Part shown: piece by piece, positions 2,269-40,018 of the stretch | Layout of the letters: each line of letters begins with the position of its first letter | Numbering within the stretch: position 1 is the first letter of the stretch | NCBI GenBank assembly: GCA_024760545.1 | Contig: CP060501.1 | Location: forward strand, 248,001-312,000 | Source: Nitrospira sp. | GTDB taxonomy: Bacteria > Nitrospirota > Nitrospiria > Nitrospirales > Nitrospiraceae | Direction: 5' to 3' | DNA length: 64,000 bases | The notes under the pieces: generated by a model | The model's database searches: none | Seen by the model: the letters and a program-made list of their open reading frames with translations, nothing else | Told to the model about the DNA's origin: nothing | Translations under genes and position numbers: made by a program

Positions 2269-2343
2269 GCGGGCGTAGCTCAGTGGTAGAGTCCTAGCTT
2301 CCCAAGCTAGTTGTCGTGGGTTCAAATCCCATCGCCCGCTCCA
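2269..2343 (+). tRNA. tRNA-Gly (anticodon CCC), integration site
   Basis: The cloverleaf can be drawn by hand: a 7-bp acceptor stem GCGGGCG/CGCCCGC, a D-arm GCTCAGTGGTAGAGT, an anticodon stem CTAGC/GCTAG enclosing the loop TTCCCAA (anticodon CCC), a T-arm with GGTTCAAATCC, discriminator T and an encoded CCA. The 3' 47 bases are the integration target of the elements to its right. The integrase stop codon lies inside the tRNA on the opposite strand. Confidence 0.93.
2297..2343. repeat. attL: tRNA-Gly 3' end, 47-bp direct repeat
   Basis: Bases 2297-2343, from GCTTCCCAAG to CCA, are repeated identically at 41274-41320, and a diverged copy lies at 16564-16608. A tRNA 3' end duplicated at both ends of a region, with an adjacent integrase, is the standard signature of site-specific integration. 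Confidence 0.9.
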
Positions 2344-3518
2344 ATATTTCCAAGCACTTCGAGATCAATCCCCTTCACAGCAGTTTCCGCCATCACGGTT
2401 CTAGTCACGGTTCCATTTGAAACCGGGGGCTGTTCTGCCTTCAGGGGACCGCTCTCAGCATGAATCACACTCGGCTTACCGAAGCTAGCCACGGTCTCAA
2501 TTGCAGCCTTCAGGTGGGTGGGGGACAAGTGGGCATATCGACCAACTAAGCCTGTTGTACTGTGTCGGAGCAGGGCAGCGATTGTGCCTTCGGTTTGCCC
2601 ACTCATAGCTAATCGACTCGCGAAGGTATGGCGCAAGGTGTGCCACGTGACGCCTTCCAGCTTGAGGGCCTGGACAGCTGGTGCAAAGACCCGTGAATAG
2701 AAGTTCCGTTGATCCAATCGTGTGGCTGGGTTCTCAGAGGGAAACACCCACGTCGACCGCTGCCATGAGTCAAAGCCTCTGAGGACCGCCTTCGCTTCTT
2801 CATTCAGAGGGGCGTACTGAACCGTTCCTGCCTTCGTGTACGAGAGCGTTAGAATACCGCGCTCCAAGTCCACATCGGCCCACTTCAAGCCAAACTGCTC
2901 ACTCATACGAAGCCCCGTAAGGATAGCCAGCCGAGCCCAAGAACCATAGATGTCGCCAAGTCGCGTGATCAATGCCGCTTCTTCTTCTGAGGTCAGGAAG
3001 CGAGTCTTCCCCGTAGAGACTTTGGGAAGGGATACAACCGCAAAGGGGTTCTTATCAACGTTCCCATCCCGAACAGCCTTGTTCAGGATATGGCGTAGGA
3101 ACTTCATGTAATGGATGATGGTCTGAGCCGCTAATCCTTCGGTCTGAAGGTCTCGCTGAGCTTCGTCCAATAAAGCAGGGGTGATGGCATTTAGCCGCTT
3201 CCCCTTAAGTCGTGCCTTCCACCACTCACCATAGTGTTTCTCGGCCGCCTGATTCTTCACCCGCGAGACCGTCACATGCGCGGTGATGAGCTCCTCGGCT
3301 AGGACATATCCGCCATGCTGATACCGTTCAGGAAAGAATCGACCGTCCTTTTGTTCCAACTTTGCTTTCTCGTAGAACTCTCGGGCCTTCGTCTTATTGG
3401 GAAAACTTCCGAACCTTCGCTCTCGGCCTACGTGGTACAGGCGGACATACCACACGAGTTTGCCCGTCGAGTCCGTCTTGCTCACCAACCCTCGATTTTG
3501 TCTTCCTGCTCGTGCCAT
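2322..3518 (-). CDS. int: Tyrosine recombinase / integrase of element A
   Basis: A 398-residue phage-type integrase that would catalyse excision and integration at tRNA-Gly. An N-terminal arm-binding and SAM-like core-binding region spans about residues 1-165. The catalytic domain follows with the full set of active residues: R204 (TGLRMSEQ), K229, H293 and R296 (HTLRH), H319 (LLRHS) and nucleophile Y328 (GRYAH). The C-terminus extends ~60 residues beyond the usual end and its last codons are read from the antisense strand of the tRNA, so integration and coding are coupled. The gene starts 3 bp after the upstream ribbon-helix-helix gene, indicating co-transcription from the palindromic region at 3702-3740. 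It appears intact, and a decayed relative lies at 16609-17311. Confidence 0.95.
   Translation of the reverse strand: MARAGRQNRGLVSKTDSTGKLVWYVRLYHVGRERRFGSFPNKTKAREFYEKAKLEQKDGRFFPERYQHGGYVLAEELITAHVTVSRVKNQAAEKHYGEWWKARLKGKRLNAITPALLDEAQRDLQTEGLAAQTIIHYMKFLRHILNKAVRDGNVDKNPFAVVSLPKVSTGKTRFLTSEEEAALITRLGDIYGSWARLAILTGLRMSEQFGLKWADVDLERGILTLSYTKAGTVQYAPLNEEAKAVLRGFDSWQRSTWVFPSENPATRLDQRNFYSRVFAPAVQALKLEGVTWHTLRHTFASRLAMSGQTEGTIAALLRHSTTGLVGRYAHLSPTHLKAAIETVASFGKPSVIHAESGPLKAEQPPVSNGTVTRTVMAETAVKGIDLEVLGNIGAGDGI
2391..2412. promoter_or_regulatory. Putative integrase arm-type sites, left side
   Basis: Two near-copies of GTCACGGTT lie at 2392-2400 (ATCACGGTT) and 2404-2412, spaced 12 bp, inside the 3' end of the integrase gene. 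Three copies of the same nonamer lie inside the right-end repeat (41115, 41127, 41150). Paired oriented repeats on both sides of the att core are what arm-binding sites look like; binding is inferred. Confidence 0.55.
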
Positions 3519-3521
3519 GCG

Positions 3522-3677
3522 TCACCGTCCTTTCTGTTCCGCTTCTGAAGCTTGTTTGAAATGTACTTCCAGCAGATGCCTGATCAGCCCCGCTGCGCTG
3601 GTGCCGCGCTTCCGCTCGGCGTCGAGTTTGGTTTTAAGAGTGACCGGAAGTTGAATGTTGAGCCGTTGCATTCTCAT
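3522..3677 (-). CDS. Ribbon-helix-helix (Arc/CopG-like) DNA-binding protein
   Basis: A 51-residue protein beginning MRMQRLNIQLP. It has the short basic beta strand (RLNIQLP) followed by two helices (TLKTKLDAERKRG, then AGLIRHLLEVHFKQ) typical of Arc/MetJ repressors. The start at 3677 is chosen because GGAGG stands about 8 bases upstream; a longer frame reaching 3725 would read through the palindrome. It ends 3 bp before the integrase start, so it probably represses its own promoter and the integrase through the palindrome just upstream. Confidence 0.7.
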   Translation of the reverse strand: MRMQRLNIQLPVTLKTKLDAERKRGTSAAGLIRHLLEVHFKQASEAEQKGR

Positions 3678-3701
3678 CTTTGTTTCCTCCGTACTGCCAT
3701 G

Positions 3702-3740
3702 CACCATAAGATACATAGTGTACATATGTATCTTATGGTG
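3702..3740. promoter_or_regulatory. Perfect 16-bp inverted repeat between divergent RHH genes (operator candidate)
   Basis: Arms at 3702-3717 and 3725-3740 are exact reverse complements, separated by GTGTACA. The element sits in the only gap between two divergently transcribed ribbon-helix-helix genes, one of which leads the integrase operon. It most likely holds the shared operator and overlapping promoters. Confidence 0.75.
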
Positions 3741-3787
3741 TCAAGTGGTGTTTGACTGAATCGAAGGGATTGAGTACCCTTACTGCC

Positions 3788-3973
3788 ATGAAACCTGACC
3801 CAAAAACAGATGTAACCGTTCTGAATCTTAGGGATATGCCGAAAGACCTTATCGCGAAGATTAAGGCAGCTGCAGCGCTGGAACATGCCTCATTGAGGGA
3901 ATACGTGACGAGGCTTCTCGATAATCACGTTCAGGAACTGGAGAAGAAGGGGCACCTGCCGAAGGGGAAGTAA
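3788..3973 (+). CDS. Ribbon-helix-helix protein, antitoxin-like
   Basis: A 61-residue protein starting MKPDPKTDV. Its strand TVLNLRDMP and two helices (LIAKIKAAAALEHAS, LREYVTRLLDNHVQ) match FitA/Arc-type antitoxins and phage repressors. No PIN-domain or other familiar toxin follows; the next gene (4012) starts 38 bp downstream and is unrecognised. It is divergent from the RHH-integrase operon across the palindrome and could be the competing regulator of a two-repressor switch. An upstream TTG at 3752 is in frame, but the ATG at 3788 gives the better-defined domain; the ribosome site is weak for both. Confidence 0.6.
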   Translation: MKPDPKTDVTVLNLRDMPKDLIAKIKAAAALEHASLREYVTRLLDNHVQELEKKGHLPKGK

Positions 3974-4011
3974 TGGCCGCCCTCCCAGAGGTCCTCGGGG
4001 AAATTTGACAG

Positions 4012-4770
4012 ATGCTTTCTTGGCGGTCAAAGATTTCACTCGTGCAGTTCTTGCGTTTGCAGTCCCTCGAGTCGATTAACACTCTAATACTAAAGCACGA
4101 TTTTGCTATTCCCGGTTCAGGGCTCTCTTCCTATGAGCTTGAATCCGTAATCCTGCAGGCTACCGATCATCAGATAAGAAACCTCTTGGATGAGGTTCTA
4201 CGAACCCAGAACACACTTCGGTTCGACGTGTCTCCTCGATATCGATTTGATGAGCGCTTCAAAGATCTGAAACTATGTCTGCTTTTGGACGGCCTTCAGG
4301 TCGAAGGTTCACAGCTCATTCAAGTTGAGCCCACCGTCGACGGGGCAGATCAACCTGAAGACGCTCTTTCTAGAGAACTAAAGAGCTCGGGGCTTCCCAA
4401 TCGAGAGGATATTATTAGAGTGCTTACAAACTCAGCTGAAGCATTTCGAAAATCTCCTCCAGATTTCAATGGCTGCTTAAGTAATGCACGGGTAGCCTTG
4501 CAAACGCTTGCCACAGACATAGCAAAGGGTCGGCGTGTACGTTATCCAGGTTCATTTGATGAGAACCTGTGGGGACAAGTTCTTGCTTATCTTCGAACGT
4601 CAGATTTGATCAGCAAACGAGAAGAAGACGGTCTAAGTGGGGTATTTACCTTTGTTAGTCCTGGCGCTCATTCCCCCGTGGGGTTAGATGAAGCCGAGAT
4701 GACTAGACTTGGGCGATCGCTTATAGTTTCGATGTGCTACTTTCTTGTTAAACGCCATAATGGCAGTTAA
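4012..4770 (+). CDS. Hypothetical protein, possibly defence-related
   Basis: A 252-residue soluble protein that I do not recognise with confidence. The C-terminal ~110 residues (NARVALQTLATDIAKG to LGRSLIVSMCYFLVKR) are helical and contain a GAHSPVGLDEAEMTRLGR stretch reminiscent of the C-terminal helical domains of abortive-infection and phage-accessory proteins. The N-terminal half is also mostly helical. Base composition looks more AT-rich than its neighbours, consistent with recent acquisition. It follows the antitoxin-like RHH gene by 38 bp on the same strand, so it may be its operon partner. Confidence 0.5.
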   Translation: MLSWRSKISLVQFLRLQSLESINTLILKHDFAIPGSGLSSYELESVILQATDHQIRNLLDEVLRTQNTLRFDVSPRYRFDERFKDLKLCLLLDGLQVEGSQLIQVEPTVDGADQPEDALSRELKSSGLPNREDIIRVLTNSAEAFRKSPPDFNGCLSNARVALQTLATDIAKGRRVRYPGSFDENLWGQVLAYLRTSDLISKREEDGLSGVFTFVSPGAHSPVGLDEAEMTRLGRSLIVSMCYFLVKRHNGS

Positions 4771-4809
4771 TGCTCATGCTCGATTGGTGCTATTTATATT
4801 CGGACATGT

Positions 4810-5262
4810 TCATGGCAGCCTCTTTCTCGTCAAGAGTTCTGCACTATCGTCAGGTTGTGTCGTTTCAGGTTCTGGTAAAATCTTGGGTTCCCACCCGGGT
4901 TTCCTCATGTAGCCAAAACGGTCAATAATGAATGTTCTTGGTTCCTGTTGAGTGATCCCGATTTGTTGAGAGGGACGCCCATGCCCCCGATCCAGAAGCG
5001 AGTTGGCCGCTGCCAGTCGTACCTGCTCGCTCCCACCATGATCTCTCAGATGGACCAGGGTCTCTAGGCAGGCCTCGCTTTCCATCGCCGCTGCTTCCTT
5101 GAATGGACGAGTGAGCTTATTGGGACTTCCAGCCGGGCGACCGGAATTAGGGCGCTTTCCACCATGGCGCTTGATAAATCTTGATTCTTTTCCATCGCTA
5201 TTTGTCTGTGTCTCTGGTGTGTGATCATCACTTTGCATGGCAGCCTTATTGTTTTTCGTCAT
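4810..5262 (-). CDS. Phage-type small protein with GGKRPNSGRPAGSPNK motif
   Basis: A 150-residue basic protein. The stretch KRHGGKRPNSGRPAGSPNKL at about residues 33-52 is a motif frequent in phage and mobile-element proteins related to small terminase subunits and DUF5681 proteins. It is followed by a helical region with LAAANSLLDRGHGRPSQ. It is the last gene of a three-gene overlapping operon behind the replication protein (start 5262 overlaps the upstream stop at 5259). A role in DNA binding is likely; packaging is uncertain because no large terminase is present. Confidence 0.55.
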   Translation of the reverse strand: MTKNNKAAMQSDDHTPETQTNSDGKESRFIKRHGGKRPNSGRPAGSPNKLTRPFKEAAAMESEACLETLVHLRDHGGSEQVRLAAANSLLDRGHGRPSQQIGITQQEPRTFIIDRFGYMRKPGWEPKILPEPETTQPDDSAELLTRKRLP

Positions 5263-5864
5263 GACCTAGCCTCCTGCTTTCTCCCATCGTATCCACGCTC
5301 CCTGACGGTCCAGGCCGCACAGAGTCGTCCGTTAGGGTCCGTTTGCCCCACCGTTCGAATCAACGATAGCGGTACCCGTTGACCATCAGTGAGACACACC
5401 AGCCAACGCCCTGCGTCCCAGCGATTCTCCTGCACTGTTCCGTGTTCTCGATCTTCAGAACCCCCACAGAGGTTCCCCGTCTTGTCCTGATGGGTGACAA
5501 GCCAGCCGGGTTGAATGGGAGGCTGAGGAGTGCTCTCGCCGAGTCGGACTCTATCCGAGGCCAGTGTCCCGCCAGGGATGAGGAGGGTTTCCACTCTGGT
5601 CCCTGAAGGGAAACAGCGTCCACACTGATAGGCTGACTCATGGGAGAAGCGCAGCCAATACCCACCGCCACATTGATCACAATAGTCTGTACCTGGTTTG
5701 CTAGGAAGGCGGGGTTCGCTCCCTCGTGAGGGCGAAATTTCCGACGAAACGTTACAGGATGGAACTGACATTAGTGACATTATGTCTAGTTTGGGTAGAA
5801 TGTCGCCTTTGTCAGTTCGATCCCGGGGAGTTTCTGTCAAAAAACTGGAGAGCCACTTATTCAT
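5259..5864 (-). CDS. Hypothetical zinc-finger protein next to the replication gene
   Basis: A 201-residue protein with one central treble-like Cys cluster, YCDQCGGGYWLRF then YQCGRCF (about residues 61-85), suggesting a zinc ribbon. The N-terminus contains a TDKGDILPKLDIMSLMSVPS segment of the kind that often trails DUF3987-type replication proteins. Its start overlaps the replication gene stop (ATGA-type overlap), so it is translationally coupled to it. Function is unknown; an accessory replication role is inferred from position only. Confidence 0.5.
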   Translation of the reverse strand: MNKWLSSFLTETPRDRTDKGDILPKLDIMSLMSVPSCNVSSEISPSRGSEPRLPSKPGTDYCDQCGGGYWLRFSHESAYQCGRCFPSGTRVETLLIPGGTLASDRVRLGESTPQPPIQPGWLVTHQDKTGNLCGGSEDREHGTVQENRWDAGRWLVCLTDGQRVPLSLIRTVGQTDPNGRLCAAWTVRERGYDGRKQEARS

Positions 5865-8259
5865 AAGAGCTCACTTTTGGATTAATCCAGTATTCGGTTT
5901 TGCCCTTCTTCCTAAAAGCCGGAGGGCTTTCTTGCTCCTTAAGCCACCCAAGGGAGACAAGCTCATCACAGGCATTCTCGATCAGTTCCCGGTCATGAAG
6001 ACAACTCCAGTTCTTCCGATAGACATCACGTACCGTGAACGGGTTAGGAAGGCCTTTTTTCTGAAGTTTCTCTGCGAGTCGTGCCGCCGCCTGCTGCGTC
6101 GCATTCGTCACCAGCCCATAGATTCGGCGGGCATGGGCTTCCAGATAGCCACACCAGGCCGCAGCGTATTCGGCATGCCGTGCGGAGATCTGAGCAGAGA
6201 CGGGTGAAGCATTGGACGCTAGATCCAACAGATGGAATATCAGGGCCAGACTCGGCATGAGCGATCGATACTTCCCAAGATGCTCCAGGATGACGGGCTC
6301 ATCGTCTTGCGAACGAAGTTTCATTTCCAGTTCCGTCAGGAACTCATTGAAGACCACTTGCCCCTCATCGCTGAAGCGGTAATAGGGGGTGCGCTCATTT
6401 TCATCCCCATAGGCCCCACATTGACGAAAGTCCATATCGGCCATGTGCTGCACCGCATGGTGCGCCGTCTGTCTGGCATAGGCGTCAATGGGCCGATCAA
6501 TGAGTTTCCAGGCGGAGGGTTCATCGGGATAGACGCACATCTGAAGCCGCTGCACGAAGCCGTCATTGTTGTGCCCGCGCATAGCCGCGTAGAGGTAGCC
6601 CGTTAACTTGGCAGGCTGAATCCCGCCAAACAGTGACACGGTGTTGCTGGGCGTGTAGATATGCCCCCGTCCAATGCGGTCGGCGGTGTAGGAGTTCTGC
6701 CCATTGAACCCTTCCAAGAAGAAGGCGCGGTCGCTTTCATGCCCGTCTTTATCCCACGTCGCGAGGAGACCGATCAGCTCATCTCGAAAAACTAGCAAGC
6801 CTCGTGGATTCTCCGCTTGGAGCTCGGCCATCTTTTCCACGGTCGCATCGTTCGTTTTGTAACGTCGCCACACGGGCCGGTCCGGTTCCGTTAAGTCGCG
6901 AAACTCCTGTTTGATGTCATCCATGTTTTTCCCGGGCTTACCGATCCCCTTGGCCACCTTGCGCATGTCGGCCTGCAGAGCTTCCTTCTGAGCTTTGAAG
7001 GCTTCAACTTCCGCATCATGCTTCTTGAGAGCCTCGTCATAGGCCTGCTTCGCAAGGGACTCGAGCTTTTCAAGGGGCTTCATCGCTTCACTAATGGCAG
7101 GTGTTTTCAGCATGCTTGGCCGCCCAACTACACCGCCCCAAAGATTCGGAACAACGGTCCAATCATCGTTCTTTTTGGGACGAATGCCGCACCCAGCTCC
7201 GATGATGGACCCCGCCATGACGATCATGGCTGTGGCCACATAATCAGGAGGGCATTGCATGCGTTCGGAGACATCTTTCACCATGCCGCGAAACGCGGAT
7301 GGCACAATCTCGAGGGGTAATGGTGGAACAGGGGCGAGCTCGGCCTTGATCGGCTGAATTTCCGGCCATTCGCCAGGAGATGGCACTAACAAAGACGACA
7401 TTGTAGCGCCATCGGCTGCCAGGACAGGTTCAGCCTGAATCAAGAGGTCTTTGAACTGCTCCGGCGTCCCTCCGGCTTGGAGCCATTCCACCACGTCACC
7501 TTTCGGTGGAAGACCTGGCAGACGGAGGACCTTTACGAATGAAGCTCCTGCCGCAGTTGCCATATCTGCCACGTCCCGTAAGTATCGTTCTCCTCGTTCA
7601 TCCTGATCGGGGCAGATAATGACTTCTCGCCCCTTCACAGCGCTGAAGTCCGTTCTCTTGGCCGCGTTGGCTCCGCCTGCTGTGGTGGTATGCACCCCGG
7701 GTAAGCCCGCTGCGACGGCAGCCTCAACGGCTTTCTCGCCCTCGTGGAGCACGATAGGGGAATCAGCAACTTGAAGAAGAGCAGGCAGCCGGTACAGCAC
7801 CCGCCCAACGCCCTCCAGGCCCCACACCCATCTGCCATTGCCATCGGGACGGCGTTGGCGGAAATCTTTGGGATCAAAGCGGACCGCTTGATAGAGAGGT
7901 GAACCCATTGCATTGGTGTAGTCATAGGTCTCAACGATTCGCCGTCCCTGATGGCCATTCGTGGCAGCGTGGCCGTTCACGCCCGCTACCAACTGTAAAG
8001 CTTCCGAAAATCCACAACCCTTCACGTTCTGGACAAGTGCAAACCCATCACCCGCTTGCGGGATGCACTGATTGCAGAACCACGTTCCTCGGCCGTCCAG
8101 ATCGTCAAAGCGGAACCGATCTTTTCCACCACATGTCGGGCAGGGCCCGTGTTGCTTTGGTGTCTGGGGTACTTCAATGCTGAGATGGGCTAGAATGTGT
8201 CGCCAGCGTCCCCTAGCGGCATCTTGTATCGATCTCGTGTTTCCTGCCGCCATGGTCAT
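5857..8259 (-). CDS. Zinc-finger/TOPRIM primase fused to a DUF3987-like helicase region
   Basis: An ~800-residue replication protein of phage-satellite type. A CHC2-like zinc finger (CPTC ~40-43 and CNQC ~62-65) is followed by a TOPRIM domain (~170-270; HEGEKAVEAA with the acidic cluster CPDQDERGE). The C-terminal ~500 residues match the DUF3987 class (PDYVATAMIVMAG, GRPSMLKTPA, LVFRDELIGLLATWDK, FLEGFNGQ). It should prime and possibly unwind the element's DNA, allowing independent replication after excision. The start at ATG 8259 shares bases with the stop of the preceding small gene (TGATG), so translation is coupled. Confidence 0.85.
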   Translation of the reverse strand: MTMAAGNTRSIQDAARGRWRHILAHLSIEVPQTPKQHGPCPTCGGKDRFRFDDLDGRGTWFCNQCIPQAGDGFALVQNVKGCGFSEALQLVAGVNGHAATNGHQGRRIVETYDYTNAMGSPLYQAVRFDPKDFRQRRPDGNGRWVWGLEGVGRVLYRLPALLQVADSPIVLHEGEKAVEAAVAAGLPGVHTTTAGGANAAKRTDFSAVKGREVIICPDQDERGERYLRDVADMATAAGASFVKVLRLPGLPPKGDVVEWLQAGGTPEQFKDLLIQAEPVLAADGATMSSLLVPSPGEWPEIQPIKAELAPVPPLPLEIVPSAFRGMVKDVSERMQCPPDYVATAMIVMAGSIIGAGCGIRPKKNDDWTVVPNLWGGVVGRPSMLKTPAISEAMKPLEKLESLAKQAYDEALKKHDAEVEAFKAQKEALQADMRKVAKGIGKPGKNMDDIKQEFRDLTEPDRPVWRRYKTNDATVEKMAELQAENPRGLLVFRDELIGLLATWDKDGHESDRAFFLEGFNGQNSYTADRIGRGHIYTPSNTVSLFGGIQPAKLTGYLYAAMRGHNNDGFVQRLQMCVYPDEPSAWKLIDRPIDAYARQTAHHAVQHMADMDFRQCGAYGDENERTPYYRFSDEGQVVFNEFLTELEMKLRSQDDEPVILEHLGKYRSLMPSLALIFHLLDLASNASPVSAQISARHAEYAAAWCGYLEAHARRIYGLVTNATQQAAARLAEKLQKKGLPNPFTVRDVYRKNWSCLHDRELIENACDELVSLGWLKEQESPPAFRKKGKTEYWINPKVSSYE

Positions 8260-8423
8260 CACCGCACCCCGCTTTCATCAGCGATTGCAAGAAACTCCTC
8301 GTCAGTGACTGGGCGACCTCGTTGCGCTTTAAGGCGAAGGCGCAGGCCCACCCGTCGGGCGGCTTCTTTCAGAATTCCTGGCAGCTCCTCGGCGATGTGG
8401 GTGAATCCATGATTGCGGGTCAT
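8259..8423 (-). CDS. 54-residue hypothetical protein
   Basis: A short frame beginning MTRNHGFTHIAEELPGIL and rich in Arg and Lys, with a helical centre. Its start lies 3 bases inside the end of the AlpA-like gene (8420) and its stop shares TGATG with the replication protein start, so it is embedded in a fully overlapping operon. That spacing, rather than homology, is the main evidence that it is real. Confidence 0.6.
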   Translation of the reverse strand: MTRNHGFTHIAEELPGILKEAARRVGLRLRLKAQRGRPVTDEEFLAIADESGVR

Positions 8424-9838: not shown

Positions 9839-9919
9839 CTACTTGCGCCATGCCGCGACCATGATGCACGTCAGTCCCACAATCGAGCTCACGAGAATCG
9901 CTTCGATTATCCACGGCAT
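9839..9919 (-). CDS. 26-residue membrane peptide
   Basis: The frame starts MPWIIEAILVSSIVGLTCIM and ends AWRK, one hydrophobic span with a positively charged C-terminus. AAGGAG stands at a good distance before the ATG at 9919, and the gene begins 22 bp after the stop of the 57-residue membrane protein, so both are probably translated from one message. Peptides of this size often stabilise membrane complexes; no family can be named. The gene is too short for routine callers and may be missed. Confidence 0.55.
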   Translation of the reverse strand: MPWIIEAILVSSIVGLTCIMVAAWRK

Positions 9920-9941
9920 ATGGCTACTCACTCCTTCCCCA

Positions 9942-10115
9942 TTATGAATGCAGCGCCGTCATTGTCAGCTCGGCGCCGCACGATTGGAGCAGCAGGAGCG
10001 CACCGAGGAATAGGGTAATCATGACGGGCCAGATCATCGCGAGCACACCGAGAACGAGGACGAGCGTAATCCCGGCCAACGTCTGTTGGACGAGCGGGCT
10101 CTTAGCTCTCATCAT
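9942..10115 (-). CDS. 57-residue membrane protein
   Basis: Begins MMRAKSPLVQQTLAG and contains two closely spaced hydrophobic segments (ITLVLVLGVLAMIW and MITLFLGALLLLQSC), probably a helical hairpin. The start is fixed by AAGGAGGA 6-7 bases upstream; a longer open frame to 10295 lacks such a site. It heads a two-gene unit with the 26-residue peptide. Upstream, a sigma-54-like promoter (10269-10284) and a tandem palindrome (10361-10398) match those in front of the multicopper oxidase gene, so it is probably co-regulated with it. Function unknown. Confidence 0.6.
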   Translation of the reverse strand: MMRAKSPLVQQTLAGITLVLVLGVLAMIWPVMITLFLGALLLLQSCGAELTMTALHS

Positions 10116-10268
10116 ACGATCCTCCTTCCGTACTCTCTTTTGGAAGATGCGAAAAGTTTGTAACAGTATTACCCCGCGCTTCCGTGTGGAAAATGTCGTC
10201 AGCGTTCGGCGTCCCGATGATAGGTACCTTACGATTTGGATGATCCAAGACGCGTGTTCTCTGCCATC

Positions 10269-10284
10269 AGCAAGTTGCAGACCA
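10269..10284 (-). promoter_or_regulatory. Sigma-54-like promoter (-24/-12)
   Basis: On the minus strand the sequence reads TGGTCTGCAACTTGCT: GG, ten bases, GC, with a perfect TTGCT -12 box and a partial -24 box. The predicted start is near 10257, giving a ~140-base leader before the 57-residue membrane gene. Support comes mainly from the matching arrangement at 15425-15440. Confidence 0.4.
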
Positions 10285-10360
10285 CTGATGGCCACGGGGA
10301 CGCAGACTCACAAATGCTGGAGATTCAGGACTGTTCCCCTGCTCTTCCCGAAAAGCAGCC

Positions 10361-10398
10361 TGAATCATTTATATTCACTATGAATCAATTGTGATTCA
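10361..10398. promoter_or_regulatory. Tandem palindromes, candidate activator sites (copy 1)
   Basis: Two 18-bp near-palindromes, 10361-10378 (TGAATC-N6-ATTCAC) and 10381-10398 (TGAATCAATTGTGATTCA), are spaced 20 bp start to start. They stand 78 bp upstream of the -24 GG at 10282-10283. A second pair of the same design lies at 15515-15552. Confidence 0.6.
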
Positions 10399-10545
10399 CC
10401 TCATGAAACTTCCCTCTGGAGGAAACCCGCGATATTCAGCATTCACAGCATTCGCGGGGATCAGCCGTGGCCTGTGGCTTGCTTATGGAGCTGAGCGTCA
10501 ATGATGCTCATGGTCATGGATGGCGAGAGCCTAGAGGAGACCTCA

Positions 10546-10764
10546 ATGCCCGACAACAAGAAACGCTGGGTCGAACTGACGACTCCTGATCAGCATGCGG
10601 ATGGAACGTGGAGTTGTCGCTATGTCATCTTTGAGTTCGAGTCAACACGATGGAGATGTAACAGAGGACGACCTGAAGGCAGCTTTGCATCCAGAGAAGA
10701 GGCACAAGCTGCCGCATTGGTACAGGCACAGATTCTGATCCATGGACGGAAGCCCAGATCCTAA
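10546..10764 (+). CDS. 72-residue hypothetical protein
   Basis: Begins MPDNKKRWVELTTPD; the start is chosen for GAGGAGA about 6 bases upstream, although the frame stays open to 10501. The sequence suggests a small beta-rich domain (TWSCRYVIFEFESTRWRC) followed by a helix (SREEAQAAALVQAQIL), resembling small stress or cold-shock-like basic proteins without matching one I can name. It is transcribed away from the membrane-peptide operon, beyond the tandem palindromes at 10361-10398. Confidence 0.5.
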   Translation: MPDNKKRWVELTTPDQHADGTWSCRYVIFEFESTRWRCNRGRPEGSFASREEAQAAALVQAQILIHGRKPRS

Positions 10765-10799
10765 TACGTTCCCAATACGAAGTAGACTCTTGATGCTTG

Positions 10800-11024
10800 T
10801 CAGCCTTCGTCCGCCTGCAATCCGGCCATAAGTGCCTGCACCGTCTTCGGCGCATTCCCTTCGGCAAGTGCTGTTATGGAGGACCAGTAATTGAAGACGT
10901 GTCGGGCTCCATGACGCTTTAACACTAGCCATAGGTGGCGAATCGAGTGGGGCATCGGACTGTCCGGCAACTCACCCACAATCTTATTATACGGCTCGAC
11001 GTCCCGGTTAGATTCCAATACCAA
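10800..11024 (-). CDS. 74-residue hypothetical protein
   Basis: A short frame with a helical, Trp/His-containing centre (SIRHLWLVLKRHGARHVFNYW) and no membrane segment or known motif. It is convergent with the 72-residue gene. No strong ribosome site is visible, so this is a weak call. Confidence 0.35.
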   Translation of the reverse strand: MVLESNRDVEPYNKIVGELPDSPMPHSIRHLWLVLKRHGARHVFNYWSSITALAEGNAPKTVQALMAGLQADEG

Positions 11025-11082
11025 CTAATTCCGATTCTTCCTCTCCCTCAGCTATTCATCCGATTTCGCCGTTGGAATACCG

Positions 11083-11113
11083 GAAGGCGGCGATCGGTGT
11101 GATCACCGCCTTC
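11083..11113. terminator. Strong hairpin after the copper operon
   Basis: GAAGGCGG pairs with CCGCCTTC and the inner GATC pairs with GATC around a GGTGT loop. The hairpin lies 20 bp beyond the stop of the cupredoxin/propeller gene (11133, minus strand). No long U-tract follows on either strand, so it may terminate weakly or protect the mRNA end. Confidence 0.5.
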
Positions 11114-11132
11114 TTCTCGGCTTCTCATAAAG

Positions 11133-13220
11133 TTATGGGCAGTTTATCGAGGGATCACTACCAATCGGGTTCCGCTGCTGCGGCGACAGTTTCGAACACC
11201 ATTCGGCGGGCAGCTCCTGCACCCACCCGTTGTAGACGACCGGAATCGGCAGGACGCCCTGTCCGCCCATGCCCGGTTGGCCGATTACCTTCACCCTATC
11301 GGGAATGGAAAAGTCGGTAGTAGTCGCCCCCACCGTCCCTAGCAACACGCGCCCGGCTATGGTGGCATTTGCAGGATTCCCTCCGGGAGCTGGATCCACG
11401 ACGATCAACGCGTTGCTGAATTTGCTGGCGACATAGGCGTAATAGCCACCGCCATCCTTGGCGCCGTATTGCACGCCATGGCACCCTGGATCACAGGGCA
11501 ACATGGCCACGACCTGGTCTTCCGTAGGCGAGCCCTTCCGGGTATCGACAACCGTAATGGTGCCGGTCAGAGTATTCGCCGTAACCATGTTGGTTCCGTC
11601 CGGACTCACCGGAGTCTGTATCGGGAGGGCGCCAACCGGACCTGATATGTTTCCCTGCCCCGCAACATCCAGAGGGAAATAGTTCATACCAATCTTTAGT
11701 AAATCGATATCATTATGGACCTTAGCTCCCGTCACGGGATTAATGACCGTGATCGTGTTATCAAGAAAATTGGCCACGTAATACTTGCTCGAATCGGGCA
11801 TCATGCCCGTAGCAATTGGTACATGACCCGTAGGAATTGTGGCAGCGATTCCACCATCGCCTGTGAAGTCATACACTGTCGAGGTGTTAAGATTTTCATT
11901 GGGCGTGACCATCTTCATTCCATTATGGCTCATCCAATGACCATGAGGATGGGTGGCGGTAAACACATCTTCCCCTCCCGGTCCCATCGGGATGTCCCGA
12001 AGCTTGGGAAGAGGGTTGGTGGCATAGGCAGGATTAAAAGCGTCAAACTCGCGAACGTTGTTGCCACCGTTTTGTGCCACATGCACTTGGTCGTTGTTGA
12101 CTCTCGTCATCACATGTGAGGGGGCGGGACCCGTCGGAAGATCATACATCCATTCACCGGTCGTTCTATTAAACACCGTCAATCTCTCGTCGAGCCATTG
12201 AGTCTGATAGATCACCGTCTGATTTCGATCCGTCCACATGTTGTGGGGATGATTCATATTGTGAGTTGGGAGCGCGATCTTCTTCGTCAACACCCACTTG
12301 TTGTGTGCATCGACGGTGACGGCCGTCGCCGTCCCCGGCTTCGACTTCCCCGCCGTCAATTCAAACTGGGTGTCGACCCAGATTTCACCAACGGGGGCCG
12401 TCCCTGGGTCACTCAATTGGGCTGATGGATTGAACGGAAGAGTAGGATCATAGGCCGCAAGCGCCGGAGCGACATTCGGAACGTCAAGCCTCTTCCCATT
12501 CTCATCGTACACAATCACCGGGACAGCCGGATAGACTGGTGCCCACGAGTCCTTGGTGTAATCTTTCCAATTCCCTGGCTTCGTGGCAATAAAGAATGTG
12601 CGCAAGAGACGGAGCGCCAAATCGCTGTAGGTCGGGACCGTAACGCCGTTCACCAGTGAAATCTTTTTGCCAAGATCCAATCCAATGGGCCCTAAGCCTA
12701 ACTGCTGCAAGATGTTGTTAGGGCTATCCACTTTCGTGTTGGGATCATCCACGATGACCGCCGCGAACATATAGACATGGATGTCACAGATGAAGACGTA
12801 GAGTCCTGGATCATTCAAGGTCACGGTGGCCACGCCTCGCTTTGCCGGATCGCGAACATCGATGGCTGTCTTGAATGGCATGTTTTTGGCTCCGGTGGGG
12901 TAAATCAAACTCAACGCCGTATGGACCGTGCTGGCTTCTCCACTATACGTGGGAAACCCAACCGTTTCTCCGGGAGCAATGACGGCGAGGGATTTTTCTC
13001 CCACTGTGCCGATTTGTCCGAGTTGAGGCACACACCCGAATCCTGATTTCGAGTTGCCCGTATTAATACAGGTAAAAAAGTTTCCCGGATTGTCTCCAGC
13101 TTCGAATGAGACGACTGGAGCCTTAGAAACTGCCGCACGAGGAGCGGCCTGGGCTACGCCAAATGTTCCCCATCCCATCAGCAGACTGAGAGCAGCCAAT
13201 AAGAGATGTCGCATTTTCAT
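11133..13220 (-). CDS. Exported cupredoxin-beta-propeller protein with His-rich hub
   Basis: A 695-residue protein with a signal peptide (cleavage after AQA ~25). The N-terminal cupredoxin domain carries type-1 copper ligands H100 and C145-x2-H148-x2-M151 (VFICDIHVYM). From ~310 a YVTN-type beta-propeller follows. The loops entering its blades hold many histidines: H320/H324/H326 (THNMNHPHNM), H369, H380, H424/H426/H428/H432 (THPHGHWMSH), H466, and H581 beside C576 and C580. Nitrous oxide reductase also combines a propeller with a cupredoxin and has a His-lined copper cluster in the hub, but in the opposite domain order. The protein lies 60 bp downstream of the multicopper oxidase gene and is probably co-transcribed with it. 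The reaction is unknown; a periplasmic copper redox enzyme or electron carrier is inferred. Confidence 0.75.
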   Translation of the reverse strand: MKMRHLLLAALSLLMGWGTFGVAQAAPRAAVSKAPVVSFEAGDNPGNFFTCINTGNSKSGFGCVPQLGQIGTVGEKSLAVIAPGETVGFPTYSGEASTVHTALSLIYPTGAKNMPFKTAIDVRDPAKRGVATVTLNDPGLYVFICDIHVYMFAAVIVDDPNTKVDSPNNILQQLGLGPIGLDLGKKISLVNGVTVPTYSDLALRLLRTFFIATKPGNWKDYTKDSWAPVYPAVPVIVYDENGKRLDVPNVAPALAAYDPTLPFNPSAQLSDPGTAPVGEIWVDTQFELTAGKSKPGTATAVTVDAHNKWVLTKKIALPTHNMNHPHNMWTDRNQTVIYQTQWLDERLTVFNRTTGEWMYDLPTGPAPSHVMTRVNNDQVHVAQNGGNNVREFDAFNPAYATNPLPKLRDIPMGPGGEDVFTATHPHGHWMSHNGMKMVTPNENLNTSTVYDFTGDGGIAATIPTGHVPIATGMMPDSSKYYVANFLDNTITVINPVTGAKVHNDIDLLKIGMNYFPLDVAGQGNISGPVGALPIQTPVSPDGTNMVTANTLTGTITVVDTRKGSPTEDQVVAMLPCDPGCHGVQYGAKDGGGYYAYVASKFSNALIVVDPAPGGNPANATIAGRVLLGTVGATTTDFSIPDRVKVIGQPGMGGQGVLPIPVVYNGWVQELPAEWCSKLSPQQRNPIGSDPSINCP

Positions 13221-13280
13221 AAAGCCTTCCTTTTAGAGGTTTCAAGTGTTTCATCTATGTTCACGCATGGCGATCCAGCG

Positions 13281-15269
13281 TCAGTGCGTCGGGTGGACGT
13301 GAAGCTCTGACCTCATCCCGAACGTGGCATGAGGAAGAATGTGACAATGGAACATCCACCGACCTAAGGCGCCCAGGTCCGACAACAGATCGTTTTTTTT
13401 GCGATCGTCCATGGAGAATCGGAAGGTGAGCGTGTAATTCCCAGGCACATCCACGACGTCCCGAAACTCCTTAGGAAAGTTGTATGAGGGCCCGCTTATG
13501 CCTGCTCGTGGGGTCAGCTTGATCGGCTGCACTGAAAACCCGTGCAAATGAAACGGATGGTGAGCCCCCGTCGTATTGGTCATCGTTAGCTCCAGCGTAT
13601 TGCCGATGATTGCATGCCGGGCTGATTCCAGATAAAAAGGATTGCCGCTGCCGAAGTTGCCCATACCATCTGCGCCAAAGCCTGTGAATTCACGCGGCAT
13701 CGGGATACCCTCCACCGATGCTTCAAAAGCACCAGTGTTAGTAGTGAACGTAAACTTGATGTCCTTATCCAGCGACCCTTTTTCTCCGGCATCAAGGACA
13801 AGATCAGTCATTGGTCCACCGAGAACCTTGACCATCGCTTGCGCCCCGAAACTCGCAAGCAGTGCCGTACCGTTCGCGATGTTGGGTTGAGGGGCCGCAT
13901 GACCGGCCACCTTCAGATGCATCACCGGCACCGTCGGCAGCCACGAGTATGTGGCTTCCACTCGCTGGTAATCCTCGGTCCACAGGGTGAGGACGGAATT
14001 TTGGGCGGCGTTACCCGGAATATTCGCCACCACATCCGCACGACTTGCAGGCGGGAGCAGAATCTCGCCGAGCTCATAATGTGTAACAAATTTACCAGAA
14101 CTGCCCCCCTCAACAAGGGCATTGTTGAGGAATCCTCCCTCTCCACCGATTCGAACGAGGTCAATTTGCTTCCCCGAGTTGTCCGTCAAAAGAAGGCGAA
14201 CATAGCGGACCGGCGAGGGATTCACGATCTGCAACCGCAGCCCCTGACCTGCCTGGACAGGAAGTGTCACCGCCCCAGCTGCAAGCGCGCCCGGCGCCGC
14301 AGGCGTTCCGGCCCTCGCGCCAACAGTGACGCCATTGGTCAGGACCGTAAACCCTTCACTCATACGACCAGTCAACCCGGGAGATTGAATGTTCGGAATG
14401 TCTCCGGCACCGTATAAATTCGGCGTATACACTCCATTGGCATCAAGCGGATCCGTTTCGCAGAGGATGAGCGGGGACTGAGTCAACGGATGGTTTTGGT
14501 AGTTGATCTGCCACGATTGAATGCCGCTGACGTGTGGCAGATTGCCGTCAAATGTGGCTGGATTGCTCCCATTGAGGCCAGACCCGCATACCGTGATGTC
14601 ACTGATCACCAACGTCTTGGTTTGCTCTGCCGAAGGGATCACGCCCAGATTTCGGAGCCGTTGCTCATACCCCGGAGCCTCCCCCCGATTGTCTTCAATA
14701 ATGATCGACCCGTAGAGTCCTTTGGCCACTTGATTGGTCGACGAGCGGTGATGCGGGTGGTACCAGAAGATCCCCGGCCGGCTTACGATGAACTTATAAT
14801 CGAATGTACCCTCTGGGTCCACCGCAGCCTGTGTCAGTTCCGAGCCGTCACTTTGATTGTTTAACTCAATGCCGTGCCAGTGAATACCCGACTTAGCCTC
14901 TGGATCCGAATCTGAAGGCGTGAGTTTATTCACGTAATGCACGATGACTTTGTCTCCCACCCTGAGCCGAAATTCCGGACCGGGTATGCCAGGCGGTGTA
15001 CAAGTGGTTAAGGCAGCATTCGAACAGCTCTTAAAGGTCATCGCGTTGTTCGCCCCCACCCCATTGCCGATTTGGACGGATGCCTCGCTTGCCACAATCC
15101 ACGTCTCGATGCCGTTGTTGGGATTATCATCCGCGTCGAGCACCTGCGGAACCACATAGGGCCCGACTCCCGTCGTGGCCTGCGCCATCTCGTTGCCGGA
15201 CACACACAGCATGAGCCCTAAGATCCCGGCGAGGCATGCTTTCCAACCGATCACATTCACGAGGTTCAT
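13281..15269 (-). CDS. Periplasmic multicopper oxidase (three-domain, laccase type)
   Basis: A 662-residue protein with a signal peptide (to about MAQA, 31). All four copper motifs are present: HWH (130-132), HPH (171-173), HPFHLHG near 590-600, and the C-terminal HCHILPHATFGM (641-652), which supplies type 3 and type 1 ligands with an axial Met652. Such enzymes couple one-electron oxidation of a substrate (phenols, metal ions, Cu(I)) to reduction of O2 to water. The Met-rich loop of CueO-type cuprous oxidases is not obvious. It is followed by the cupredoxin/propeller gene; upstream are a sigma-54-like promoter and tandem palindromes. Copper use is certain; the physiological substrate is not. 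Confidence 0.9.
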   Translation of the reverse strand: MNLVNVIGWKACLAGILGLMLCVSGNEMAQATTGVGPYVVPQVLDADDNPNNGIETWIVASEASVQIGNGVGANNAMTFKSCSNAALTTCTPPGIPGPEFRLRVGDKVIVHYVNKLTPSDSDPEAKSGIHWHGIELNNQSDGSELTQAAVDPEGTFDYKFIVSRPGIFWYHPHHRSSTNQVAKGLYGSIIIEDNRGEAPGYEQRLRNLGVIPSAEQTKTLVISDITVCGSGLNGSNPATFDGNLPHVSGIQSWQINYQNHPLTQSPLILCETDPLDANGVYTPNLYGAGDIPNIQSPGLTGRMSEGFTVLTNGVTVGARAGTPAAPGALAAGAVTLPVQAGQGLRLQIVNPSPVRYVRLLLTDNSGKQIDLVRIGGEGGFLNNALVEGGSSGKFVTHYELGEILLPPASRADVVANIPGNAAQNSVLTLWTEDYQRVEATYSWLPTVPVMHLKVAGHAAPQPNIANGTALLASFGAQAMVKVLGGPMTDLVLDAGEKGSLDKDIKFTFTTNTGAFEASVEGIPMPREFTGFGADGMGNFGSGNPFYLESARHAIIGNTLELTMTNTTGAHHPFHLHGFSVQPIKLTPRAGISGPSYNFPKEFRDVVDVPGNYTLTFRFSMDDRKKNDLLSDLGALGRWMFHCHILPHATFGMRSELHVHPTH

Positions 15270-15424
15270 GATGCGTCTCCCTGGTTATGTCAATGATCTA
15301 CTTGCAATATTCACTTAGCTACCCAACAGCGACGTTGGTTACAATCTTGTAGATTATATTTACCAAGAACTCGACCTTGCTTAAATTAAATTACCTATTA
15401 ATGACTAGGATTCGTCACTACAGA

Positions 15425-15440
15425 GGCAAAGAACGAGCCA
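15425..15440 (-). promoter_or_regulatory. Sigma-54 promoter of the multicopper oxidase operon
   Basis: On the minus strand it reads TGGCTCGTTCTTTGCC, differing from the TGGCACG-N4-TTGCW consensus at two positions. Predicted start near 15413, giving a ~145-base leader to the ATG at 15269. The tandem palindrome begins 76 bp upstream of the -24 element. Confidence 0.65.
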
Positions 15441-15514
15441 TGGTGGGGGCACATACAAACGATGACAATTTCGACGTTTGTATTTTTCCCTGGATCGATA
15501 ATTATCCCGGCGCA

Positions 15515-15552
15515 TGAATCGAATTGATTCACTTAGAATCAAAATGTATTCA
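15515..15552. promoter_or_regulatory. Tandem palindromes, candidate activator sites (copy 2)
   Basis: TGAATCGAATTGATTCA (15515-15531) and a weaker partner at 15535-15552 (AGAATC-N7-ATTCA) are spaced 20 bp. This matches the pair at 10361-10398 in half-site, spacing and distance to a sigma-54-like promoter. Confidence 0.6.
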
Positions 15553-18815: not shown

Positions 18816-19817
18816 ATGCTTAAATGGGATGAAACTCTGATCGGGAACAGCAGGTGTTTTCTTCGTGTCAAAAGCATGATTCCGCTCGTAAGCAGGTCCA
18901 AGTCGACAGTATTGATCTCAGGGGAGACAGGGACAGGAAAGGAATTGTTTGCTCGCGCGGTTCATTATTCGAGTGAGCGGAGAGGAAAACCATTCGTGCC
19001 CGTGAATTGTGCGGCCTTGCCGGATTATCTGGTGGAAAACGAGTTGTTCGGTCACAGCAAGGGTGCGTTCACTGGCGCACTCGTCGAAAAACATGGGCTG
19101 TTTTACGAGGCGGATGGAGGGACCTTGTTCCTCGACGAGATCAATAGCCTCAATATGGTGGCTCAGAGCAAACTCTTGCGTGTGCTTCAGGATCAGGAAT
19201 TCAGACCGCTGGGCTCCACAAAAAGTCGAGTGGTCGATGTGAAAATCGTGGCCGCCACAAACACAGATTTGCGGTATTTGGTTGAAGCCCGCCAATTCCG
19301 CGAAGATTTGTTCTATCGATTGAATGTGTTATCCCTGGTGCTTCCTCCGCTGCGTGACAGAAGGGAAGATATTCCCGAGTTGGCCAGACAGTTTCTGAAG
19401 CGCGCCGTTGGTGAATTTGCAAAGGGCGATGTTCAACTATCTGCCGATGCCATTACGAAGCTGATGAACTATGCATGGCCGGGTAATGTAAGGGAGTTGC
19501 AGAGCGTAATACACCGCGCAACAGCGATGGCGAAGGGCGATGCACTTGAAGTTTCGGACCTTGACTTGCCTGATTATAAACCGTCTGGATCAGCCGCGAT
19601 ATATGTGCCAGAGCGGATAATCATCGATAAGTGCGGCTTTCAGGCTATGAAGGCGAAGATGATCGATGAGTTCGAGCGGACATATCTGAGTCAGATTCTT
19701 ACCGAGCACCAGGGGAATATTTCCAAGGCTGCACGAGCGGCGCAAAAAGAGCGCCGTGCCTTCCAACGGTTGCTCCATAAACACGGTCTCGATCGTCGTA
19801 TTTTTTCTGCGGCATAG
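18816..19817 (+). CDS. Sigma-54-dependent transcriptional activator lacking a sensory domain
   Basis: A 333-residue AAA+ enhancer-binding protein. Walker A GETGTGKE is at residues 36-43, the sigma-54 contact loop GAFTGA at 83-88, Walker B LFLDEI at 104-109, the arginine-finger region FREDLFYRLNVL follows, and a Fis-type helix-turn-helix occupies the last ~50 residues (QGNISKAARAAQKERRAFQRLL). The AAA+ domain begins almost at residue 1, so there is no receiver or GAF domain; such proteins are constitutively competent or controlled by a partner, as with PspF/HrpR. Sigma-54-type promoters at 19921, 21325 and 21534 suggest it activates the neighbouring pilus genes. Confidence 0.92.
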   Translation: MLKWDETLIGNSRCFLRVKSMIPLVSRSKSTVLISGETGTGKELFARAVHYSSERRGKPFVPVNCAALPDYLVENELFGHSKGAFTGALVEKHGLFYEADGGTLFLDEINSLNMVAQSKLLRVLQDQEFRPLGSTKSRVVDVKIVAATNTDLRYLVEARQFREDLFYRLNVLSLVLPPLRDRREDIPELARQFLKRAVGEFAKGDVQLSADAITKLMNYAWPGNVRELQSVIHRATAMAKGDALEVSDLDLPDYKPSGSAAIYVPERIIIDKCGFQAMKAKMIDEFERTYLSQILTEHQGNISKAARAAQKERRAFQRLLHKHGLDRRIFSAA

Positions 19818-38713: not shown

Positions 38714-39418
38714 AAGCGAACCATTGTCGGTAATTGGTTTGCGGCTGGAGAATCTACAAGAATTGTGAGGCATACACAAGTAGGAGTAGGTTCTATCAGA
38801 CAATTATTGATCCTTAATATACTATTCTACGAAGTGCCTCTCTAACAGATTATAGTCAGCTAATCACCTCCAAGGGTTTCCATATCCCCCAATCGCTTCG
38901 CCTCGCTGAAACTGACCTGTAGGCGGGGCATGTCTCGATCACACTCAACTATCAACACAGTCGTTGTGTTAGCCGTAATCGTCGCTTCCCGCGAACGGCA
39001 CCGCGGATGCTCTGAGCATACCGTACGCTCGCAATTCACATGAGTGAGCTCCAGCAAGAGGAGTGCCACTGCAATTCGAGTCTCTTTCAGCAGAAAATGG
39101 TGGAAGAATCATTGGAGACGATCATTGTGGGGGATTTTGCCACATGTGTCTCGACGGACCTGTGACAATAGGCAATTAGACAAAGACTGCCTGGATCAGG
39201 CGACGGTGCTCGTAAGGAACAATGAATCCATTTGGGTTCTACATGTATCCAAATGATCCACTTCATCGCACGTCTTGTTACCAGACATACGACAATACGT
39301 GTGAATGCATACTCTTCCCGCGCCATCGACGTGGCTCACTCTTTGCTGACGATTCGGGCACGGGATTCTCTATTCGACAAAATACCCGAGACTGAGGAGC
39401 AAATGTGAAAGGATTGGG

Positions 39419-40018
39419 ATGGTGAGCAAAGATACTGGCATTGCTACTGACGCGTTCCGAGAGTTGGACAAGAATTTACGGGCACAAGCACACCATGAGG
39501 CCCCCTATGAGAAGGCCCTTGGCAAAATGACCATCCGCTTTTCCTTACTCCATATCTCATTGGAGTGTTTTGCCTGGGAAGCATGGGGGCTTGCGATACG
39601 GACGGCTCTGGTTCTGACGAAGGACTTGCCGATAACGCTCCTGGTAGAGAAATTACGCTCCAGCGAGGAGTGGCTGATCTACAAAGAGAAAGACCGCGAG
39701 GACTTTCGGCGTATTTTGGATAGGATAGAAAGCGTGGCAAGTAGAAGAAACGAATTATTGCACTCACTCTGGGTTATCGACGGGGGAAAGCCCGTACGTT
39801 GTTTCAATCGCAAGAAGGCGGCAGGTGGGAATGCCTCATCAGTGGATGACATCAACCGCTTAAGTCGAACGATCACCGAAATCCTGGCAGACTTGGTAGC
39901 ATTCAGAGAGAGAAGGCCTCTGGAGCAGGTTGGGCTCGGCCTCCATGCAGACCAAAACAATCCAGCACGTGGCAGTCGTGGTGCCACGGCAGTGCCAGAA
40001 CACCATGACACACCGTGA
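39419..40018 (+). CDS. HEPN-like protein, putative RNase
   Basis: A 199-residue, mostly helical protein. Residues 110-115 read RNELLH, the R-x4-H motif of HEPN nucleases, at the end of a long helix (EDFRRILDRIESVASR) as in that fold. A preceding helix pair (FSLLHISLECFAWEAWG) fits. The tail (from ~175) is Pro/Ala-rich and may be non-native. HEPN proteins act as toxins, abortive-infection effectors or CRISPR RNases, usually with a partner; none is adjacent. Assignment rests on one motif and fold impression. Confidence 0.5.
   Translation: MVSKDTGIATDAFRELDKNLRAQAHHEAPYEKALGKMTIRFSLLHISLECFAWEAWGLAIRTALVLTKDLPITLLVEKLRSSEEWLIYKEKDREDFRRILDRIESVASRRNELLHSLWVIDGGKPVRCFNRKKAAGGNASSVDDINRLSRTITEILADLVAFRERRPLEQVGLGLHADQNNPARGSRGATAVPEHHDTP

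Follow-up and report, generated by a model that had tools for sequence, protein, structure and literature searches.

Tandem palindromes and sigma-54-type elements suggest a regulon with small membrane protein targets in Nitrospira

Nitrospira is a main nitrite oxidiser and includes comammox (complete ammonia-oxidising) strains. In a stretch of 64,000 nucleotides from a 4.81-Mb Nitrospira sp. genome (C1:248001-312000, the window in what follows), a gene for a 57-residue membrane protein and a gene for a multicopper oxidase are each preceded by a tandem pair of palindromes and a sigma-54-type -24/-12 element, which raises the question whether the two sites belong to one control system, what that system controls, and which activator acts on it. 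Our answer, to which we give a probability of about three in four, is that the window sites are enhancers of one genus-wide sigma-54 regulon, with two response regulators, RR1 and RR2, as likely activators and a small membrane protein family, P80, as chief output.

Tandem palindromes and sigma-54 elements in the window and beyond

The paired palindromes and sigma-54 elements that the earlier note had proposed at two places in the window were both read directly from the sequence, and they follow a general form in which TGWATC-N5/6-GATWCA occurs twice with a step of about 20 bp and a -24/-12 element lies downstream. At site 1 (10361-10398, minus strand), the candidate upstream activating sequence (UAS) of the 57-residue gene (9942-10115, minus strand, ATG at 10115), the tandem reads TGAATCACAATTGATTCA-TAG-TGAATATAAATGATTCA with one mismatch across both palindromes, and the minus-strand element TGGTCTGCAACTTGC (10284-10270) lies 76 bases past the proximal palindrome. 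At site 2 (15515-15552, minus strand), the candidate UAS of the oxidase gene (13281-15269, minus strand, ATG at 15269; 662 residues, Pfam Cu-oxidase_2 and Cu-oxidase_3), the tandem reads TGAATACATTTTGATTCT-AAG-TGAATCAATTCGATTCA, and the element TGGCTCGTTCTTTGC (15440-15426, minus strand) lies 74 bases downstream. The centre-to-centre step of the palindromes is 20.5 bp at both sites. Three intervals had been said to match between the two places: the palindrome step and the UAS-promoter distance indeed recur genome-wide, while the leader length does not, and its match at sites 1 and 2 is coincidental, because promoter-to-start distances at other sites range from about 34 to 250 bases, varying with the chosen start. 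Palindromes occurring singly, with at most two mismatches, are nothing unusual in the 64 kb (their count was reached in 12 and 7 of 100 shuffles).

Site 1 has a second sigma-54-like element on its other side, TGGCCTGTGGCTTGC (10468-10482, plus strand, 69 bases away), which outscores the minus-strand element and points toward a divergent 72-residue frame (10546-10764, plus strand, MPDNKKRWVEL..., no Pfam match above cut-off). This frame is a candidate target, and site 1 may fire both ways. The paralogous locus C1:4164856 has a copy of the tandem and retains both elements identically. In G091, a genome of the same species, the DNA upstream of the gene has drifted with insertions and deletions; both palindromes are still recognisable, the minus-strand element is unchanged and the plus-strand element differs by one base.

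The whole source genome was searched for the tandem in two spacings, with at most three mismatches and a reversed-pattern control. The two spacings gave 7 and 11 matches and the control none, so the tandem, in contrast to the single palindrome, is unusual; one of the 7, C1:1940097, is chance-like. Single TGAAT-N8-ATTCA palindromes were present at 17 sites versus 0 in the control. Reading 360 kb of the genome with flexible spacing, picked around the tandem matches and including the window, we found 21 sites, 18 of which had a sigma-54-like element within 20-165 bases. The first downstream frames, taken as candidate targets, include the 57-residue gene and its paralogue, the oxidase, a 199-residue gene and its homologue, a Mur-ligase-like protein, two proteins that look like lipoproteins by eye, a TonB receptor operon, the propeller protein of C1:4144665 (Pfam Lactonase propeller), the operon of a PF04392 protein, the histidine kinase HK2 and RR2, and an M12-type protease, behind which lie genes for two-partner secretion, CHAT and DUF928 proteins. 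At locus L030 (C1:882884), a tandem and a sigma-54 element stand before HxsA2-type His-Xaa-Ser peptides (NF038296, 77.8 bits, cut-off 48) and HxsD (TIGR03976, 57.8 bits, cut-off 50). An exported or membrane protein, judged by eye, follows 10 of the 17 clear site-promoter pairs, and the outputs include many such proteins alongside other target types.

Across 79 Nitrospira genomes, the fixed N8-N8 tandem with at most three mismatches was matched at least once in 59 (an upper figure) and at least twice in 44, with a maximum of 12 per genome, versus 0 of 79 for the reversed-pattern control. The N8-N7 form was sought in 59 relatives, where 13 genomes had a match, many of them chance-like, and the control had one (G043); beyond the source genome only G002 was convincing and G016 possible, and we therefore relied on the N8-N8 form. 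In an order-wide search, with W at the third half-site position and at most two mismatches, the tandem was present in 114 of 196 genomes and 17 of 35 genera with no control match, and the half-site was frequently TGTATC or CGTATC in the other genera listed. In genus g12 of the same family, many genomes with only one match to the helix-turn-helix (HTH) profile of the candidate activators share a near-identical tandem of TGTATCTGAAGACATACA type, perhaps a sister regulon.

A sigma-54-like element was found at 92 of 102 distinct sites in the fetched loci, and 105 elements lay in range of 101 sites versus 14.7 expected from the whole-locus rate, a sevenfold excess. Distances of 53 and about 73 bp in the source genome had hinted at two helical turns, and this phasing was rejected (10.5-bp vector length 0.01 over the 105 elements); an apparent period optimum near 11.5 bp was set aside, since sites at orthologous genes cannot count as independent.

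The P80 small membrane proteins

Relatives of the 57-residue protein, whose usual length is 80 residues, were found in 57 of the 79 genus genomes, with as many as five in a single genome, and the protein itself is 100% identical in Nitrospira sp. BO4. Named genomes yielded 45 relatives, 44 labelled Nitrospira or Nitrospiraceae and one (isolate CMX) Nitrosospira, in a scan with a single peptide pattern for which absence elsewhere is weak evidence. The ratio of nonsynonymous to synonymous substitution rates (dN/dS) was 0.09-0.46 in the 12 comparisons listed for the window gene, and the family median was 0.33 (824 pairs, dS 0.1-1.5); as judged from these ratios, the family is under purifying selection and the 57-residue frame is a real gene. 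There was no match above cut-off for the 57-residue form in NCBIfam or for the 80-residue forms in Pfam and PHROGs. AlphaFold2 predicted a single helix at residues 7-70 of the 80-residue form (mean predicted local distance difference test 75, predicted template modelling score 0.38), with high confidence limited to about residues 11-50. With its one helix, P80 might modulate a complex in the membrane.

We then consider the DNA upstream of 42 members (40 fetched members, the window gene and its paralogue). A tandem was present in 25 of them and a tandem with promoter in 23, versus 0 in 100 shuffles, and the UAS-promoter distance was 70-76 bp in 22 of the 23 and 83 bp in one. P80 loci of the named genomes gave 27 and 26 of 42, at 71-76 bp; this set consists of the 42 of the 45 loci with at least 400 upstream bases and shares loci with the fetched set, so the two are not independent. 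The proposal that site 1 has the 57-residue membrane protein as its output was thus strengthened by a conserved family under purifying selection that keeps tandem and promoter at a near-fixed distance. On this comparative evidence, shared control by tandem palindrome and sigma-54 is strongly supported, and the predicted sigma-54 regulon is probably real and widespread in the genus, with this new family as its most consistent output.

The candidate 26-residue frame that follows the 57-residue gene (9839-9919, minus strand) has no counterpart beside the 41 other P80 members (240-420 downstream bases scanned); G091 retains it and differs there at four bases, three of which are silent substitutions in third codon positions. 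At L242 and L262, unrelated short hydrophobic frames lie downstream of P80. In a strict scan, which omitted the window site as its best-scoring promoter is on the other strand, tiny membrane frames followed 3 of 91 promoters; shuffles gave 0.08, and for background promoters the figure was 6 of 566. Such frames were therefore rejected as a general output class and, P80 aside, make up a minority theme. Hydrophobic frames of only 24-34 residues were also seen soon after regulon promoters at L132 (three, from 1778), L099/L107 (at 1501) and L163 (at 5917).

Candidate activators RR1 and RR2

The source genome has 30 strong and three weak activator-domain matches, among which three activators share one HTH type: RR1 (C1:4129161-4130567), RR2 (C1:4144797-4146248) and the L060 type (C1:4021966). 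RR1 and RR2 are 14 kb apart, beside regulon sites, and next to each are the genes of a histidine kinase and of a lone PF04392 protein of substrate-binding type, with a TonB receptor near RR1 in the source genome. The DUF928 gene and the (TonB)-PF04392-HK2-RR2 operon are separated by a tandem with promoter in 6/6 genomes read, namely the source genome and five chosen for having site and regulator gene on one contig. RR2 is probably self-inducing, because its operon has the same kind of site upstream. The PF04392 protein is suggested to have a sensor role feeding the HAMP/GAF kinase, because no ATP-binding cassette (ABC) permease or ATPase was seen between its gene and that of the kinase. Neither regulator reaches the cut-off of any of the 25 best NCBIfam models listed for it.

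Presence of the site followed the number of HTH matches in the genus. With at least one tandem set against at least two HTH-profile matches, 53 of the 79 genomes had both, 6 the tandem only, 3 the HTH matches only and 17 neither (Fisher p 1e-9 and Spearman 0.78, both without correction for phylogeny), and the mean number of tandems was 0.29 in the 21 genomes with one HTH match versus 4.13 in the 30 genomes with three. We presume that the activators are most likely RR1 and RR2, two paralogous response regulators of NtrC type.

It is unlikely, yet worth weighing, that the sites are real sigma-54 enhancers served by another activator, either the near-universal L060-type paralogue or the activator without receiver domain that is the nearest such gene in the window (18816-19817, plus strand). 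The L060-type protein is 47% identical to RR1 over the HTH, and the g12 genomes have tandems with only one HTH match, a single match being taken as L060 type from match length and strength only. However, at least one HTH-profile match is present in 77 of the 79 genus genomes, so the near absence of tandems in one-match genomes is unexplained by a shared paralogue. The gene of the window activator is 3.3 kb away from the site of the oxidase, but the activator is matched (E <= 1e-90) in 13 of 79 genomes versus 59 of 79 with tandem matches, and was rejected as the general regulator.

Several observations weigh against RR1 and RR2 as activators of a genus-wide regulon with P80 as chief output. As regards the sites, several single three-mismatch matches are chance-like (e.g. 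in G063 and G021), three of the 21 sites in the source genome have no sigma-54-like element in range and C1:991560 has a borderline one only, and the promoter distances show no 10.5-bp helical period. As regards P80, 17 of the 42 members have no detectable tandem (one with 62 upstream bases only), and the family is present in genomes without tandem matches (G009, G081, G008, G084). As regards the regulators, G060, G070 and G090 have at least two HTH matches and no tandem, G005 has two tandem matches (one chance-like) with a single HTH match, and in G061 and G062 a site is missing immediately upstream of the TonB operon beside RR1. Outside the genus, the same four classes numbered 14/27/6/26 over 73 family genomes (p 0.19, at a stricter HTH threshold), the genomes of g12 combine tandems of TGTATC type with only a single HTH match each, and in other families (60 genomes, not tabulated) tandems occur even without an HTH match, as in G142 with four tandems and none.

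Copper proteins, related systems and a proposed mechanism

Orthologues of the oxidase occur in 22 of the 79 genus genomes at E <= 1e-40; G091 has no oxidase match at this threshold, though it keeps the 57-residue gene. In the upstream DNA read (418 to 1,500 bases per orthologue), a tandem was present in 4 of the 22 (L271, L275, L280, L283), the window's included, so the oxidase site is not conserved, a further point against a genus-wide reading of the window sites. Two of the four have a promoter in range, and the window copy alone has both within 450 bases. Several orthologues have sigma-54-like elements without tandems, and inspection of upstream half-sites for an alternative spacing gave no general pattern. 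The earlier note had named absence of the palindromes upstream of orthologous copper genes as a refutation, and for the oxidase its case is largely refuted, with 18 of 22 orthologues having no site in the upstream DNA read. Its small regulon, limited to tiny membrane peptides and extracytoplasmic copper enzymes, is too narrow a picture for 21 sites in 360 kb and the mixed targets of the genus. The copper link is a strain-level detail.

Further copper-related genes lie near regulon sites. The 695-residue protein downstream of the oxidase (11133-13220, minus strand; judged by eye to be exported, and showing pseudoazurin and beta-propeller signals that are weak and below family cut-offs) is 43% identical to the 660-residue propeller protein of C1:4144665, and G059 also has an oxidase-propeller pair. 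A copper nitrite reductase-like gene stands behind a tandem in four other genomes (L164 at 4098-5048, and L109, L106 and L158, 89-93% identical to the L164 form), with a sigma-54-like element 110-139 bases from the site; the protein scores 200.7 bits against TIGR02376, below the cut-off of 296.3, and at L164 a globin frame and one resembling cytochrome c come after the gene. The C1:4144665 propeller and the nitrite reductase-like proteins may be among the regulon targets.

The window oxidase, the relation of the C1:4144665 propeller to the window's cupredoxin-like protein and the nitrite reductase-like genes would suit a copper-responsive regulon, in which copper status switches copper enzymes and small membrane proteins together. 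We consider this quite improbable, since the tandem is so rare at oxidase orthologues, many targets are not copper proteins, no metal-sensor family was found in the RR2-linked kinase (Pfam, NCBIfam) or the two binding proteins (Pfam), and the C1:4144665 protein, for all its Pfam propeller match, has no Pfam cupredoxin match. That the palindromes and -24/-12-like elements are due to chance or to unrelated regulators is refuted in silico for the whole set by zero control matches in 79 and 196 genomes, the sevenfold promoter excess and the near-fixed 70-76 bp distance in the P80 family, although single palindromes and sigma-54-like 15-mers do arise randomly, some lone tandem matches look random and single sites (e.g. 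C1:1940097) may be chance.

Adjoining the studied region, at 2322-8262 of the window, are genes for a tyrosine integrase and a primase-helicase (DUF3987), about 8-13 kb and 5 kb from the oxidase, respectively. This region is probably an integrative element, and the oxidase may therefore be mobile cargo that acquired an enhancer.

Compared with known systems, the predicted switch follows the sigma-54/enhancer-binding-protein pattern in its paired palindromes, placed upstream at looping distance, and in its -24/-12 elements downstream of them. NtrC-type two-component systems act on sigma-54 promoters from paired upstream palindromes (as NtrC does at glnA), by an established mechanism of phosphotransfer, an oligomer on the paired palindromes, a DNA loop and ATP-driven opening by sigma-54 polymerase. 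The predicted system resembles them in the receiver-AAA+-Fis HTH architecture of RR2, two upstream palindromes, a -24/-12 promoter and a regulator operon with the same kind of site upstream. Unlike the NtrC half-site TGCACC, the half-site in Nitrospira is TGWATC, and many targets are exported proteins. Moreover, the scores of RR1 and RR2 do not reach the cut-offs of the NCBIfam models for NtrC, AtoC, NtrX, ZraR and GlrR (for TIGR01818, NtrC/NR(I), 432.3 and 404.3 bits, respectively, cut-off 558.6). PrsR, of the PEP-CTERM PrsK/PrsR system, is likewise a sigma-54 response regulator, with an exterior-directed regulon, and here too RR1 (401.6 bits) and RR2 (402.8 bits) are under the curated cut-off of 502.6 (TIGR02915).

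The exported and membrane targets fit the theme, set out in the available part of Francke et al. 2011 (PMC3162934), that the genes under sigma-54 have to do with the surface of the cell and its exchange with the surroundings; in that part Nitrospir* appears only in a tree placement and a reference, and the terms copper and tandem are absent. Nitrospira rpoN has been cloned and co-expressed in E. coli, where quorum-sensing promoter activity was lowered (PMC8553950); the portion of that paper available to us describes no enhancer site, NtrC-type regulator or target set. A term search of the accessible text of PMC12316311 gave no description of a tandem-site regulon, and no Nitrospira sigma-54 regulon was found in the open-licence literature. 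The switch is apparently undescribed. Nitrospira is hard to manipulate, and it matters that the analysis defines an operator, names two candidate regulators, lists targets and adds a membrane protein family not described before, all of which are testable in a heterologous host.

For the regulon with RR1 and RR2 as likely activators, we propose that a dimeric activator with a Fis-type HTH would bind each TGWATC-N5/6-GATWCA palindrome, and that the adjacent pair would recruit a hexamer-forming AAA+ activator, which would loop to sigma-54 polymerase at the -24/-12 element, mostly 70-77 bp away. By analogy with NtrC, the kinase would pass phosphate to the response regulator, which would form an oligomer on the paired palindromes and drive opening with ATP. 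Predicted outputs would be P80 above all, together with TonB receptors, two-partner secretion, HxsA-type peptides and likely lipoproteins, to which some strains would add copper oxidases. Further, and only tentatively, we speculate that this is a surface-remodelling switch of Nitrospira's own, in which the TonB receptor and PF04392 protein would catch an external ligand, the kinase and response regulator would amplify themselves, P80 would be the signature output, and adhesins, peptides and redox enzymes would be strain-specific cargo gaining a tandem enhancer, including on mobile elements such as that of the window.

Paralogous soluble peptides of 57 and 56 residues (...IFYANPKLK...) directly follow the tandems of L043 and L044 (C1:4289158 and 4309987); one of the pair, when submitted, had no NCBIfam or PHROGs family match. 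The window has a third tandem, absent from the earlier note (39223-39260, plus strand, three mismatches), with the -24/-12 element TGGCTCACTCTTTGC 71 bases downstream (39332-39346, plus strand) and a further sigma-54-like element, TGGCACTCCTCTTGC, at 154 bases on the opposite side. It precedes the 199-residue frame (39419-40018, plus strand), whose homologue, without a Pfam match in its first 150 residues, is 78% identical and likewise stands behind a site, at C1:4188722.

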